The position numbers and the translations under genes were made by a program. A stretch of 64,000 bases of DNA from Ferrimicrobium sp. (GTDB taxonomy: Bacteria; Actinomycetota; Acidimicrobiia; Acidimicrobiales; Acidimicrobiaceae), in assembly GCF_027364955.1 (NCBI RefSeq), contig NZ_DAHXOI010000001.1, forward strand, positions 248,001 through 312,000, read 5' to 3'. Each line of letters starts with the position of its first letter. The first letter of the stretch is position 1. This document shows positions 25,261 to 30,503 of this stretch, in pieces. The notes under the pieces are model-generated. The model was not told the DNA's origin. It saw nothing but the letters and a program-made list of their open reading frames with translations, and did not search any database.

Positions 25261-26649
25261 GTGTTGAGCGAAGAGCAAGTTTTTGATGTGGTGATTCTGG
25301 GTGCAGGGCCAGCTGGTTATGCGGCAGCGCTTTACGGTGCGTCGGCAGGCCTCAAGATCGGTATCGTGGAGCGCGATCGAGTTGGTGGTACATGCCTGCA
25401 GCGTGGTTGCGTGCCTGCCAAGGAGTATCTAGAGACGGCTGCGGTCTACCGCTCTATTCGTGGATCGGCTGAGTTCGGGATTGCTGTTAGCGACCCGGTT
25501 GTGGATTTTGCCGTCTCGCAAAAACGCAAGCAAGCGGTAGTGGATAAGTTAACGGGTGGGTTGGCTGGTATCATGAAGAGCCGCGGGATCGTGACGTATG
25601 CGGGTGACGGTGCCTATGAAGGTGATGGGCGTATCTCGGTGTCGACAGGAGAGAGGCTCGTTGGCGACAAAGTCATCATCTCAACCGGGTCGCGTCCGCG
25701 TGTCATTCCTGGTTTTGAGGTCGATGGTCGTTACGTCCTGACCTCCGACGAAGTCTTGTTGTTGGAAGAACTACCTAAGTCGGTAGCCATCGTCGGTGGC
25801 GGGGTTATTGGTTGTGAGTTCGCCTCTTTGATGGCGGATCTTGGTAGCAAGGTTACGATCGTTGAGGCACTTCCACGGTTGCTGCCAGGTGTCGATCAGG
25901 ATCTTGTCGACGTGATGATACGCTCGTTCAAGAAGCGTGGAATTGCGATTCGTACTGGTGTTGGAGTCACCGGGCACAGCCCTGATGGTAAAGAAACCAC
26001 CCTGACGTTGGCAGATGGCAGCTCATTGGTGGTCAACCAAATTGTTGTTGCGGTTGGTAGGCGTCCCAATTCTGAGGGTATTTTTCAGGGTGGAGCCGCG
26101 GTTTCGGTGTCCGAGAGAGGCTTTGTAGAGGTCGACGAAAACTATGAAACCTCGGAACCAGGCGTCTATGCAATTGGCGATTTGATTGACACCGCTCAGC
26201 TTGCACATGTGGGCTTTGCAGAAGGGGTTGCGGTAATCAAGACAATACTTGGCGAGAGGTCTACTCCGGTTGATTATTCCAGAGTTCCCTGGTGTATCTA
26301 TACCCATCCCGAGATCGCCTTCGCTGGGCTGACGGAGGAGCAGGCCAAAGAACGGGGGTATGACCCGATCGTGAAGAAGGATCCACTCGGTGGAAACTCG
26401 CGCGCGCGCATCATCGGCGAGGTGGATGGCTTCGTAAAAGTGGTTGCAGATCGAGCAACCCATCAAATTTTAGGTGTCCATATTGTTGGTCCTTGGGCAA
26501 CAGAACTGCTTTCACCGGGCTACCTAGCGGTGAACTGGGAAGCAAGTGCCGAAGAGCTGGCGCATTTTATTCAACCACATCCGACCCTTTCGGAGGCGTT
26601 CGGAGAGACAGTTTTTGCACTTACCGGAAGGAGTTTGCACGTTGGCTGA
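25261..26649 (+). CDS. lpd: Dihydrolipoyl dehydrogenase (E3)
   Basis: A 462-residue flavoprotein that reoxidises dihydrolipoyl groups of 2-oxoacid dehydrogenase complexes. FAD-binding 'GAGPAGYAAA' at the N-terminus, redox disulfide Cys-x4-Cys in 'GGTCLQRGCVPAKE', NAD-binding 'GGGVIGCEFA', and the C-terminal catalytic 'HPHPTLSE'-type His-Glu pair seen here as 'QPHPTLSEAF' (His440 region). GTG start at 25261 behind AAGGAAGG. First gene of a four-gene operon with E2, lipBA and an M24 peptidase. Confidence 0.94.
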   Translation: MLSEEQVFDVVILGAGPAGYAAALYGASAGLKIGIVERDRVGGTCLQRGCVPAKEYLETAAVYRSIRGSAEFGIAVSDPVVDFAVSQKRKQAVVDKLTGGLAGIMKSRGIVTYAGDGAYEGDGRISVSTGERLVGDKVIISTGSRPRVIPGFEVDGRYVLTSDEVLLLEELPKSVAIVGGGVIGCEFASLMADLGSKVTIVEALPRLLPGVDQDLVDVMIRSFKKRGIAIRTGVGVTGHSPDGKETTLTLADGSSLVVNQIVVAVGRRPNSEGIFQGGAAVSVSERGFVEVDENYETSEPGVYAIGDLIDTAQLAHVGFAEGVAVIKTILGERSTPVDYSRVPWCIYTHPEIAFAGLTEEQAKERGYDPIVKKDPLGGNSRARIIGEVDGFVKVVADRATHQILGVHIVGPWATELLSPGYLAVNWEASAEELAHFIQPHPTLSEAFGETVFALTGRSLHVG

Positions 26650-27748
26650 TGTAATTATGCCACAGTTGGGAGAGACCGTTACCGAGGGCACGATCACGAA
26701 GTGGTTGGTGCAGGTTGGTGATACCGTTGAGATCGACCAACCCCTCTTTGAGGTCTCTACGGACAAGGTGGATTCTGAGGTTCCAGCCACCGCATCAGGA
26801 GTGGTGAGTGAGCTTGTAGTGCCAGAAGGGGAAACCGTTGCTGTAGGTACTGTGGTTGCGAGGGTGGGCGATGCAGCCCCAGCCCCACAGCCGGCCCCAG
26901 CCCCACAGCCAGCCCCGGCCCCACAGCCAGCCCCCGCCCCACAGCCAGCCCCGGCCCCACAGCCATCTTCGGCGACTCCTGTTCGCAGGGAAGATTCGCC
27001 AGTGGCGTACTCCGGTCCGGATATTGAGCCGGGCTCACGGGATTATGTCGTTCCGTTTACCAATATTCGTCGTCGGACTGCTGAACACATGATTCATTCG
27101 AAGGCGGTCTCAGCGCATACGCTCATGTCGATCGAAGTTGACTTTGAACGTGTCGAGCGTGTCCGCCGAGCTGCTGGTGCGGACTTTAAGGCCGAGGAAG
27201 GCTTCAGCCTCACGTACCTTCCGTTTATTGCTCGAGCAGTAGTTGAGTCGGTTAGGGCCTACCCCAATGTCAATGCATCTGTGTTGGGCGAGTCGCTAGT
27301 GGTCCACCGAGATATTAACCTCTCTATCGCGGTCGATCTCAACTTGGAGGGGTTAATTGCCCCGGTAGTTCATGGCGCTGATGGGAAGCGATTGACCGGA
27401 ATCGCTCGGGAGATTCATGATCTTGCTTCCCGTGCCCGTACCCGCCGCTTAGCTGCCGACGACATCGCTGGCGGTACCTTTACGATTACCAATCCGGGTC
27501 CGTTTGGTACCTTCATGACAGGCGCAATTATCAACCAACCGCAGGTCGTTATTCTGGCGACTGACGGCATCGCTCGCAAGCCGGTCGTGATTGTCGACGG
27601 TGAAGGTAATGAGTCGATTGGGATCCACTCGGTTGGCATGTTGACACTGAACTTCGATCATCGAGCAGTCGACGGAGCTTACGCGGCAGCGTTCCTTGCG
27701 AAACTCAAGCAGGTGATCGAGACATGGAATTGGGAGCAGGAGCTTTGA
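26642..27748 (+). CDS. 2-oxoacid dehydrogenase E2 (dihydrolipoyl acyltransferase), short form
   Basis: A 368-residue E2. One lipoyl domain (1-78) with lipoyl-Lys42 in 'FEVSTDKVDSE'; a linker of five Ala-Pro-Ala-Pro-Gln-Pro units (79-108); and an acyltransferase domain from about 134 with His340-x3-Asp344 in 'FDHRAVDGA'. The 26 residues between linker and core are too few for a peripheral-subunit-binding domain, and none of its motifs is seen. TTG start at 26642 overlaps lpd by 8 bases and has GGAAGGAG eight bases upstream; earlier frames lie inside lpd. It could serve pyruvate (with AceE) or a branched-chain/oxoglutarate complex; AceE being the only E1 here favours pyruvate. Confidence 0.9.
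   Translation: MADVIMPQLGETVTEGTITKWLVQVGDTVEIDQPLFEVSTDKVDSEVPATASGVVSELVVPEGETVAVGTVVARVGDAAPAPQPAPAPQPAPAPQPAPAPQPAPAPQPSSATPVRREDSPVAYSGPDIEPGSRDYVVPFTNIRRRTAEHMIHSKAVSAHTLMSIEVDFERVERVRRAAGADFKAEEGFSLTYLPFIARAVVESVRAYPNVNASVLGESLVVHRDINLSIAVDLNLEGLIAPVVHGADGKRLTGIAREIHDLASRARTRRLAADDIAGGTFTITNPGPFGTFMTGAIINQPQVVILATDGIARKPVVIVDGEGNESIGIHSVGMLTLNFDHRAVDGAYAAAFLAKLKQVIETWNWEQEL
26876..26965 (+). repeat. Five 18-base tandem repeats encoding the E2 linker
   Basis: Five in-phase units of GCC-CCN-GCC-CCA-CAG-CCN, each giving Ala-Pro-Ala-Pro-Gln-Pro, differ only at third positions. They form the flexible linker between lipoyl domain and catalytic core and could change copy number by slippage. 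Confidence 0.9.
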
Positions 27749-29382
27749 TGGTAGAGAGCCGACCAGAATTAGGGGCTCGTTGGTTGGGACGCGTTGGTTA
27801 CGAGGATGCGTTGGTATTCCAACAGAGACTCCGCGAGGGGACGAGCTCGCATCTCTTGCTGCTCGAACATCCCCATGTGTATACGATGGGCGTCCGGACG
27901 GATCCTGCCCATCTGTTGGTTGACCCTGCTTCGGTGAACGCAACTTCTTGTTGGACAGACCGTGGTGGTGACATCACGTATCACGGGCCAGGGCAGCTGG
28001 TAGGTTATCCCATCATCGACGTCCCGTTCGGTCCAGATTCCACCCCGCAGTATGTTCACACGCTTGAGGCATCGATCATTGCACTGCTTGCCTCGTACGG
28101 GATCGAGGCCTTTACACTCAAGGAGTTCCCGGGGGTGTGGGTTGGTCCGGCTGACGCTCCTCGCAAGATCGCTGCCATTGGGGTGAAGTTAAGTCGCGGA
28201 CGATCAATGCACGGTTTTGCCTTGAACGTACATACTGATTTGTCTATGTTCGAACATATTGTTCCATGCGGTATCTCTGATAAGGCGGTCACCTCAATGG
28301 AGGCTGAAGGTGTCCATGCATCGTTGCGTGAAATAGCTCGCGCTTACGCGAAGGAGTTTGCTGCCCATTTTGCGTTCGATCAGCTTGACTATCAGGGTGT
28401 GGATGATGCCTCTCAAGTAGCCGTTGCACAAGAAGGAGCACGGACGCAGAGCGCGCTCGCCTCTCGGTTGAATAAGCGTTTGGCGAAGGCGGGCTTCTCC
28501 TTTGAGTCTGCTGTTCCCTATGTCTCACGAAAGCCGGAATGGGTGCGTAGTGAGGTAAACCTTGGTACGGAGTATCGGTCGTTGCAGCATCTTGTGCGGG
28601 ATTTGAATCTTGTAACGGTCTGTGAAGAAGCGGGTTGCCCAAACATCTATGAGTGTTGGAAGGATGGTACGGCGACATTCATGATTAACGGTGAACGTTG
28701 CACGCGCGCCTGCGGCTTCTGTCTCGTAGATACCTCGAAGCCGCTACCACTCGATTCGACAGAGCCCAGTCGGGTAGCGCAAGCGGTCGCGGCCCTGAAG
28801 CTCTCCTTTGCGGTCGTTACTGCAGTGGCCCGTGATGATCTGCAAGATGGAGGTTCTGGTGCCTTTGCGGAGACGATTCATGCGATTCGCGAGCTCAATC
28901 CTGCCTGCTCGGTTGAGGTCCTCATCCCTGACTTTAAGGGCGACCATGCATCGCTGGAGACGGTGTTGGAGGCTAGGCCCGATGTTTTGAATCACAATTT
29001 AGAGACAGCATTGCGATTGCACCGTGCCGTCCGTCCCTCTGCGAACTATGTGCGTTCTTTGACAGTACTGGCACGCGCGAAGGAGTTTGGCTTGACGACA
29101 AAGTCGGGTCTCATCGTTGGAATGGGCGAGTCGATTCCAGAACTCAAGTCAGTGATGCGTGATATACGGTCGGTAGGTGTTGATATTTTGACGGTAGGAC
29201 AGTACCTTCGGCCGACGCGAGATCACTTGCCGGTCTCTCGCTACTACCACCCTGAGGAGTTTGTCGAGTTGCGTGAGTATGCGATGAGTCTGGGCTTCCG
29301 TTATGTGGAGGCGTCGCCGCTAGCGAGGTCCTCCTATCACGCACGTCAAGGGTCCGATGCTGCTATTGAGGCGATGGCATGA
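27748..29382 (+). CDS. LipB-LipA fusion: octanoyltransferase and lipoyl synthase in one protein
   Basis: A 544-residue protein with two complete enzymes. Residues 1-about 225 are LipB: 'RGGDITYHGPGQLVGYP' (72-88), catalytic Lys140 in 'RKIAAIGVKLSRG' and Cys174 in 'IVPCGI'. After a linker of about 25 residues, residues 255-544 are LipA: auxiliary-cluster Cys292, Cys297, Cys303, radical-SAM Cys318-x3-Cys322-x2-Cys325, and the C-terminal 'ARSSYHA'. One chain would transfer octanoyl groups from ACP to the E2 and insert sulfur. ATG at 27748 overlaps the E2 stop (TGATG), with AGGAG five bases upstream. No stop or frameshift separates the halves. The standard arrangement is two genes. Confidence 0.93.
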   Translation: MVESRPELGARWLGRVGYEDALVFQQRLREGTSSHLLLLEHPHVYTMGVRTDPAHLLVDPASVNATSCWTDRGGDITYHGPGQLVGYPIIDVPFGPDSTPQYVHTLEASIIALLASYGIEAFTLKEFPGVWVGPADAPRKIAAIGVKLSRGRSMHGFALNVHTDLSMFEHIVPCGISDKAVTSMEAEGVHASLREIARAYAKEFAAHFAFDQLDYQGVDDASQVAVAQEGARTQSALASRLNKRLAKAGFSFESAVPYVSRKPEWVRSEVNLGTEYRSLQHLVRDLNLVTVCEEAGCPNIYECWKDGTATFMINGERCTRACGFCLVDTSKPLPLDSTEPSRVAQAVAALKLSFAVVTAVARDDLQDGGSGAFAETIHAIRELNPACSVEVLIPDFKGDHASLETVLEARPDVLNHNLETALRLHRAVRPSANYVRSLTVLARAKEFGLTTKSGLIVGMGESIPELKSVMRDIRSVGVDILTVGQYLRPTRDHLPVSRYYHPEEFVELREYAMSLGFRYVEASPLARSSYHARQGSDAAIEAMA

Positions 29383-30503
29383 TTGAACCTTCTCAGTTTG
29401 AGGCCGCTTATCAGGGACGCCAGGAGCGGACCCGACAGCTACTTGCGGCGAACGAAGTCGATGCATTGCTGATCACATTGGGTAGGGAGTTACCCTGGCT
29501 TATCGGCTATCAAGCGATGCCACTAGAGCGAATTACCTGTCTCTACATGGATGCCAGCGGGTCGACTCGTTTGGTGATTCCAAAGTTGGAGGCGCCGAGA
29601 GTTCGGGCATTGCCTGGACTGGAACTCGTGCCATGGGTAGATGGCGAGGATCCCTTTGGGCTCCTTGGATCCATGATTCGTGATGCAAAGGTTGTCGCAG
29701 TGGATGATCGTTTTATCTCTGGATGGCTGCTGCCACTGATGGAGCGAGCTCCAAGGGCTAGCCTGCGATCAGCGACCTCATTGCTAAATCCGCTTCGGCG
29801 ACAGAAAGATGCAATCGAGATCGAGTTGCTCGAGCTTGCGGCTCATGCAGCGGACCGGGTGACGGAGCGGCTGATTCGGGGCGAGATCAAGGTAGCGAAT
29901 CGCCGAGAGAGCGAGGTGGCGAAGGACATCGGCGAGGCTCTGCTAGAAGAAGGTCACACCAGCGTCAACTTTACCATTGTCGGAAGTGGGCCAAATTCTG
30001 CTTCGCCACACCATGACCCTACCCACCGGGTTATCATGCCAGGAGATGCGTTAGTCCTAGACTTTGGCGGGACATACTCGATTGATGGCGAGCCTGGTTA
30101 TTGTTCCGATACCACACGTACCTTTGCGGTCGGTGAAATTCCCGAAGGTTTCGGCGAACTCTACGACGTGCTGTACCATGCGCAAGCAGCGGCTCGTGAG
30201 AGTATCCGGGTGGGTATGTCCGGTCGGGAAGCCGATCTCGTCGCTCGTCATGTGATTGCAGATGGCGGCTATGGAGAGTATTTCGTTCATCGCCTCGGGC
30301 ACGGAATTGGCCTCGATGAACATGAGGATCCCTACCTGTCGAGCGAAAACGTGTTGCCACTGGAAGCGGGCACCGCTTTCTCAATTGAACCAGGCATCTA
30401 TCTTCCAGGTCGTTATGGTGCTCGGATCGAGGACATCGTCATCTTGGAGGAAAAGGGTGTCCGTCCGTTGAACGAGTCGCCTCGGGAATTGGCCGTGCTT
30501 TAG
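29379..30503 (+). CDS. M24-family Xaa-Pro aminopeptidase
   Basis: A 374-residue metallopeptidase with a creatinase-like N-terminal domain and a pita-bread C-terminal domain. Metal ligands are visible as Asp in 'LVLDFGGTY', Asp in 'CSDTTRTF', His in 'RLGHGIGLD', Glu in 'FSIEPGIYL' and Glu in 'RIEDIVIL'. It removes N-terminal residues before proline. Its ATG overlaps the lipBA stop (ATGA), so it is the last gene of the lpd operon, an odd partner for lipoate metabolism. Confidence 0.9.
   Translation: MIEPSQFEAAYQGRQERTRQLLAANEVDALLITLGRELPWLIGYQAMPLERITCLYMDASGSTRLVIPKLEAPRVRALPGLELVPWVDGEDPFGLLGSMIRDAKVVAVDDRFISGWLLPLMERAPRASLRSATSLLNPLRRQKDAIEIELLELAAHAADRVTERLIRGEIKVANRRESEVAKDIGEALLEEGHTSVNFTIVGSGPNSASPHHDPTHRVIMPGDALVLDFGGTYSIDGEPGYCSDTTRTFAVGEIPEGFGELYDVLYHAQAAARESIRVGMSGREADLVARHVIADGGYGEYFVHRLGHGIGLDEHEDPYLSSENVLPLEAGTAFSIEPGIYLPGRYGARIEDIVILEEKGVRPLNESPRELAVL

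Follow-up and report, generated by a model that had tools for sequence, protein, structure and literature searches.

What does a single open frame that holds both an octanoyltransferase (LipB) and a lipoyl synthase (LipA) encode, and does it belong to one assembly or to a lineage? The question is raised by a gene at positions 27748-29382 of a 64,000-nucleotide stretch of Ferrimicrobium sp. DNA (assembly GCF_027364955.1, contig NZ_DAHXOI010000001.1, positions 248,001 to 312,000), the whole of which is called the window below. In other Actinomycetota the two enzymes are two genes and two proteins, whereas in the class Acidimicrobiia they form one chain. A first-pass annotation of the window had described the frame as a fusion of normally separate genes, which was correct; the fusion is no local oddity. 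In this study, we report that the LipB-LipA fusion is real and class-wide in Acidimicrobiia, being the usual state of the whole class, and that its product is, with good confidence, a single-chain bifunctional lipoate-assembly enzyme.

The fused gene and its distribution in Acidimicrobiia

As read from the translation, the gene is laid out as LipB, a variable tether and a whole LipA, translated through. Its parts are listed below; residue counts refer to an alignment of 101 distinct fused genes.

27748-29382, forward strand: lipB-lipA fusion gene (open frame and translation; 544 amino acids plus stop)
27748-28362, forward strand: LipB domain, residues 1-205 (LplA-B_cat; TIGR00214 above cut-off; model match 1w66)
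28165-28167, forward strand: codon of Lys140, catalytic dyad (Lys142 of Mycobacterium tuberculosis LipB); Lys in 101/101
28267-28269, forward strand: codon of Cys174, catalytic dyad (Cys176 of M. tuberculosis LipB); Cys in 101/101
28363-28461, forward strand: tether, residues 206-238, variable and partly disordered (model confidence, length spread, pN/pS)
28462-28533, forward strand: RLAxAG helix and lead-in, residues 239-262, conserved, corresponding to the N-terminal part of LipA (alignment to M. tuberculosis LipA; pN/pS)
28534-29379, forward strand: LipA domain, residues 263-544 (TIGR00510 above cut-off; model match 5exk_I)
28621-28656, forward strand: CX4CX5C auxiliary-cluster motif, Cys292/297/303; three Cys in 101/101
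28699-28722, forward strand: CX3CX2C radical-SAM cluster motif, Cys318/322/325; three Cys in 101/101
29326-29337, forward strand: RSSY, residues 527-530, the second Ser being an auxiliary-cluster ligand (conservation in the 101 genes)

The frame runs through its 544 codons without a stop; an alternative in-frame ATG at 27724, within the upstream gene for the E2 subunit of a 2-oxoacid dehydrogenase, would give an open reading frame (ORF) of 552 amino acids. Pfam placed LplA-B_cat at residues 23-205, LIAS_N at 260-297 and Radical_SAM at 316-472. The protein passed the cut-offs of the NCBIfam equivalogs for both enzymes, namely TIGR00214 for lipB (136 bits, cut-off 83.55) and TIGR00510 for lipA (341.7 bits, cut-off 310.25), and that of the LipB model PRK14345 (176.6 against 155), while its matches to three further LipB models (PRK14341, PRK14342 and PRK14343) all lay below their own cut-offs. 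The translation, Pfam and the NCBIfam cut-offs bear out the earlier claim of a complete octanoyltransferase and a complete lipoyl synthase in one frame, and the residues named with it (Lys140, Cys174, Cys292/297/303, Cys318/322/325 and RSSY at 527-530) were found in the translation.

The eight catalytic and cluster residues (Lys140, Cys174 and the six Cys) were invariant in all 101 distinct fused genes. Within RSSY, Arg527 was present in 97 and Ser529 in 96 of the 101, the remainder being alignment gaps, and Tyr530 was present in 92 and replaced in four (two Phe, two His). The Cys/Lys dyad of LipB and its M. tuberculosis equivalents are given in the available text of PMC9307952; that of the preprint PMC13232139 names CX4CX5C and the second RSSY serine as ligands of the auxiliary cluster and describes this cluster as consumed in the reaction. 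Because both domains are complete and the catalytic residues are kept, the chain very likely performs both steps of lipoate assembly, as far as can be judged from its sequence.

The window genome is a draft of 3.08 Mb in 84 contigs (97.55% complete), in which the sole match to the fused chain was the chain itself and no other LipB or LipA was seen. A draft of so many contigs could invite the suspicion that an assembly or sequencing error had joined two genes. The search for single-chain LipB-LipA proteins proposed in the first-pass annotation was made within the class on 199 Acidimicrobiia genomes (sets of 60 and 148, nine shared). A match to the fusion protein was found in 188 of them, and both domains lay in one frame in 182 of these 188, a genome being counted as fused when one match crossed the junction without a stop or when an ORF over both domains was verified on the DNA; some of the 182 themselves end at a contig end within LipA (e.g. 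G056, G098, G135 and G163). The junction was also open in single-contig genomes of the class (e.g. G012, G037, G041 and G061). Since the same open junction recurs across the class, the fusion is not an assembly artefact; this explanation is already refuted and its probability negligible, and a stop hidden by a sequencing error between 28420 and 28540, as the first-pass annotation had envisaged, is ruled out in practice.

Fusion was not demonstrated in six of the matching genomes: in five the sequence breaks off at a contig end or close to one, and the sixth (G146) carried LipB alone. Four of the five (G005, G023, G157 and G194) gave LipA sequence only, running into the contig end; in the fifth (G029) a TGA, which may be a real stop, precedes the LipA frame at some 60 nt from where the contig ends. 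In-frame stops had been reported for G019, G119, G123, G183 and G192, and the ORF check showed both domains in one frame in each. A same-genus assembly (G006, apparently the same as locus L034 of Ferrimicrobium sp. isolate clean1785) encodes a protein 100% identical to that of the window; it also carries a second fused copy with 89% identity to the window protein, and the bin may be a mixture of two strains.

Search outside the class and origin of the fusion

The search of the phylum Actinomycetota gave 210 matching genomes, 188 of them outside Acidimicrobiia. No stop-free match over both halves was present among the matches listed for these 188 genomes; matches were ordered by E-value, so that a spanning match would be expected at the top. 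In three (G383, G305 and G356) a match did span both halves, and it held two stops in each. About two dozen fused genomes of the class, mostly with long linkers, also gave two-piece matches, so that an outside-class fusion with a long linker could have gone unseen; 30 outside-class genomes, chosen mainly for long LipA frames, were searched again. Equal open-frame length of the two halves is not proof of fusion, and the two-piece class genomes were therefore checked on the DNA. None of 16 outside-class Actinomycetota loci read on the DNA was fused, and in all 16 lipB and lipA adjoin. Candidates from the same phylum with equal open-frame lengths for both halves were discarded for a TAA and a TGA between the halves (G231 and G355, respectively) or for a TGA inside the LipA match (G375, from the search result, the DNA not being read). 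Two candidates by match range, from Lentisphaerales (L071) and Desulfohalobiaceae (L068), have their halves in separate frames. A scan of named genomes found 34 of 79 loci fused, all titled Actinomycetota or subgroups thereof, with one locus (L045) cut by a contig end; the scan used six short patterns from the window protein, which distant fusions could escape.

Trees were built from 71 LipA and 72 LipB rows, with 32 fused proteins sampled, and support of at least 95 in the Shimodaira-Hasegawa-like approximate likelihood ratio test (SH-aLRT) was counted as shown. In the LipA tree as in the LipB tree, all fused proteins fall on the same side of one branch, whose SH-aLRT of 91 is below 95 in each case; in the LipB tree two LipB-only rows, considered below, lie among the fused LipB. 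The fused LipA groups with four of the 17 separate actinobacterial LipA rows (L155, L073, L218 and L193; support 96), and the remaining ones, from families f65 and f71, are placed elsewhere in the LipA tree. In f65 the gene order is lipA then lipB. In f71 the two genes adjoin; in G231 (locus L194, 845-2656, reverse strand) they share a frame and are parted by no more than a single TAA and a few codons, which comes close to a fusion. The simplest reading is that the fusion probably arose once, from neighbouring genes through loss of a stop, and the trees, at their moderate support, are compatible with it.

One genome of the class (G108) holds a separate lipB and lipA pair (L223, contig C83, 5 kb) besides its fused gene (L128). 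The separate LipA groups with Myxococcota (support 96), and the pair was taken as bin contamination or transfer; it was included among the separate tree rows and left out of the residue comparison.

Tether, domain arrangement and mode of action

The interval from Ser183 to Pro263, which contains the tether, ranged from 45 to 199 amino acids in the 101 fused genes, with a median of 82. In the window protein, residues 224-237 had a predicted local distance difference test score (pLDDT) below 50 in AlphaFold2. No stop occurs in the tether of any fused sequence, and the two other forward frames of the window junction hold stops. Among six same-genus sequences the ratio of nonsynonymous to synonymous polymorphism (pN/pS), a rough value here as pS is 0.6-0.7, was 0.11 for LipB, 0.42 for the tether (206-238), 0.076 for residues 239-262 and 0.070 for the remaining LipA. 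The tether is evidently kept as protein. The RLAxAG segment was considered as a special docking element and rejected: in the structural alignment with M. tuberculosis LipA (5exk_I), the model from residue 239 onward matches that protein from residue 11 onward, so that the segment belongs to the N-terminal start of LipA itself.

These observations bear on the alternative that the gene yields two proteins, through internal initiation in the linker or cleavage of the tether, which we consider improbable. A disordered tether could be cleaved, and in-frame GTG (28399) and TTG (28468 and 28480) codons are present. However, no well-placed Shine-Dalgarno sequence precedes them (by eye, AGGG lies only about one base from 28399), a Met between about 25 residues past Ser183 and Pro263 occurs in 35 of the 101 genes, and the frame ahead of the LipA start is under purifying selection. 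Internal initiation, the other doubt raised when the gene was first described, is therefore unsupported.

AlphaFold2 models were built with 33 sequences of the class. The window protein gave pLDDT 85.6 and a predicted template modelling score (pTM) of 0.87; a second member (L049) gave 86.0 and 0.87, with 44 tether residues at pLDDT below 50. The LipB part of the window model matched M. tuberculosis LipB 1w66 (Z 30.3, rmsd 1.8, 205 aligned) and the LipA part matched 5exk_I (Z 40.5, rmsd 1.9, 295 aligned). Because a pTM of 0.87 would be hard to reach otherwise for domains of about 210 and about 290 residues, we infer a confident relative placement, which suggests that LipB and LipA are docked. 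Most VIA alignments of LplA structures span LipB into the same LipA helix (434-446 in the window protein, 461-473 in L049), which suggests the same domain arrangement in both models.

Positions were called characteristic of the fused group if conserved to at least 90% in the 32 fused proteins and to no more than 25% in the 37 separate ones. Each domain has only four of them; one of these eight, Arg11, is owed to alignment gaps in the separate rows. Those of interest are as follows.

28201-28203, forward strand: LipB Arg152 (29/32 fused against 0/37 separate; 94/101 fused genes)
29020-29025, forward strand: LipA His425-Arg426, usually Gln-Arg in the class (conserved in fused, rare in separate proteins)

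At LipA position 425, Gln occurs in 30 of the 32 fused and none of the 37 separate proteins, and over the 101 genes Gln is found in 90 and His in 8. Arg426 is present in 29/32 fused and 3/37 separate proteins, and in 93 of the 101 fused genes. These may be interface residues.

In the mechanism we propose, the LipB domain would take octanoyl from octanoyl-acyl carrier protein onto Cys174 and transfer it to the lipoyl-domain lysine, chiefly of the E2 encoded upstream; the LipA domain would then insert two sulfurs from its own auxiliary [4Fe-4S] cluster. From known LipA chemistry, one turnover per auxiliary cluster per chain is predicted until the cluster is rebuilt. With the domains held in fixed docking, octanoyl-E2 would leave LipB beside LipA, and its direct hand-over within the chain, as supposed in the first-pass annotation, would be plausible. 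A fuller version, which we put forward only tentatively and regard as rather unlikely, is that of a docked machine defining Acidimicrobiia: LipA would sit on LipB through Arg152 and the LipA 422-446 surface (with Gln/His425-Arg426), where the LplA alignments reach, and the octanoylated lipoyl domain would stay on the protein all the way from Cys174 to the LipA active site.

Close to an even chance, though a little short of it, must be given to a neutral fusion, in which two independent enzymes on a floppy tether gain equal amounts and co-localisation without direct transfer, the joined form having been fixed by chance in the class ancestor. This explanation shares the bifunctional chain with our proposal and denies only docking and hand-over. 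It is favoured by the wide variation in the length of the partly disordered tether (the 45-199 amino acid interval) and by the resemblance of both domains to ordinary LipB and LipA; moreover, lipB and lipA probably adjoined before they fused, as they do in the 16 outside-class loci, so that stop loss would suffice. Yet none of the 188 matching class genomes showed separate lipB and lipA in place of the fusion (G108 has an extra pair and G146 LipB alone), pTM reached 0.87 in two members, and conservation of three residues is all but confined to the fused group.

Several further points weigh against the proposed single-chain enzyme with docked domains. The docking rests on pTM and indirect alignments, and the two models share one alignment and method and are not independent. 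The fused-group residues may be mere lineage markers, as there was probably only one fusion. Cleavage of the tether after translation is possible. Eleven of the 199 class genomes gave no match, also on repeat search; their completeness is 70-96% and reaches 93% or more in four, and the fusion gene has possibly been lost in some. Two genes encode LipB without LipA on the contig, in G146 (L219, 8520-9320, reverse strand) and at locus L091 (541-1632). They are sisters (support 98) inside a 15-row set (96) whose other 13 members are fused LipB, and their LipB-only state looks derived; because they nest among fused LipB, the link between LipB and LipA can apparently be lost. Finally, no biochemistry, proteomics or complementation was found for any fused member.

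Both of these LipB-only genes lie close to a cytochrome P450-like gene (by eye).

Genomic setting and related lipoate enzymes

The neighbours of the fused gene are the following.

25261-26649, forward strand: lpd, dihydrolipoyl dehydrogenase (TIGR01350, 479 against cut-off 408.8)
26546-27748, forward strand: E2 subunit of 2-oxoacid dehydrogenase with one lipoyl domain (ORF; start probably later than 26546)
27738-27742, forward strand: AGGAG, Shine-Dalgarno-like, five bases before ATG 27748 (read by eye)
29379-30503, forward strand: Xaa-Pro peptidase-like gene, its ATG overlapping the fusion stop (ORF; NCBIfam matches all below cut-off)

The best NCBIfam match of the E2 was SucB_Actino (334.4, below the cut-off of 423.45). 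The fusion's ATG, at 27748, has one base in common with the E2 stop (TGATG), an overlap which agrees with the translational coupling to E2 suggested earlier for the window and holds also for L034 and L035; as a general feature it fails, since the congener L046 has no ATG there and gaps elsewhere reach about 110 bp. Among the 32 named loci whose upstream sequence extends for 190 bp or more, 27 have an E2 gene directly upstream, at distances from an overlap to about 110 bp, which supports, without proving, the E2 encoded there as the main target of the fusion enzyme. Five loci (L055, L056, L057, L060 and L064) have no adjoining E2 and share a similar layout with lpd about 0.6-2.5 kb upstream. 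The window genome encodes other lipoyl or biotinyl domains besides E2. A homologue of the Xaa-Pro peptidase-like gene lies downstream in many named fused loci.

The separate enzymes of other Actinomycetota, as in M. tuberculosis LipB (1w66) and LipA (5exi, 5exj and 5exk), have the same fold, catalytic residues and cluster motifs. Closest in architecture is NCBIfam NF053790 (LplA_LipA_fuse, bifunctional lipoate-protein ligase/lipoyl synthase), in which an attachment enzyme of the LplA/LipB fold is likewise fused to LipA; its attachment half is named a lipoate ligase, whereas that of the window protein is a LipB octanoyltransferase. The window protein scored 359.7 against the NF053790 cut-off of 800, and matched through its LipA part only (profile positions 329-605 of 606). 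The Lpl(AB)/Lpl(BA) ligases, with a catalytic and an accessory domain, show that fusions occur among lipoate enzymes too; according to the available part of PMC10332631 they join two parts of one ligase, whereas LipB-LipA joins two pathway steps. Human LIAS, bound to H protein (8ugo and 8v0j), performs the sulfur insertion as LipA does, its partner being a lipoyl carrier; LIAS and the octanoyltransferase LIPT2 are separate proteins, as described in the accessible text of PMC12246082.

No published LipB-LipA fusion was recognised in literature searches, within the portions of the sources that were available. The available text of the GTDB survey PMC10332631 describes other fusions, and PMC5962788, on Acidimicrobiia markers, contained none of the terms looked for. 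The single-chain LipB-LipA is a novel form of known enzymes. Such chains may already be present in automatic protein databases under a composite name. The gene is also a likely misannotation trap, in that a pipeline may name one half only, and it is a candidate marker for Acidimicrobiia. The hand-over of the octanoyl-protein from LipB to LipA is hard to test with separate enzymes; a natural fusion kept almost class-wide allows such tests on one purified protein, on cis/trans mutant pairs and on a single structure.

It is very improbable that one half of the chain has another job, such as LipB charging a different acceptor, with lipoylation left to the lipoate ligases of the genome. Two further genes of the LplA/LipB fold in the window genome, one of them in a sulfur-oxidation-like cluster with two GcvH-like lipoyl proteins, would fit this explanation; against it, all catalytic residues of both halves are kept and the cluster ligase adjoins its own likely targets. 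Specific ligases for the lipoyl proteins of such sulfur-oxidation clusters are described in the available text of PMC6067878.

The cluster in the window genome (L200, contig C14, 2172-16747) comprises Hdr-like and Etf-like genes, two adjacent GcvH-like proteins, a DsrE-like protein and a 380-amino acid lipoate-ligase-like protein, and is perhaps a second lipoylation system; the HdrB-, GcvH- and ligase-like names come from NCBIfam matches, most of them below cut-off, and the others were given by eye. On contig C9 of the same genome, a 226-amino acid LplA/LipB-fold protein with a weak NCBIfam match (L003, 1378-2058) adjoins mraZ- and mraW-like genes (by eye).

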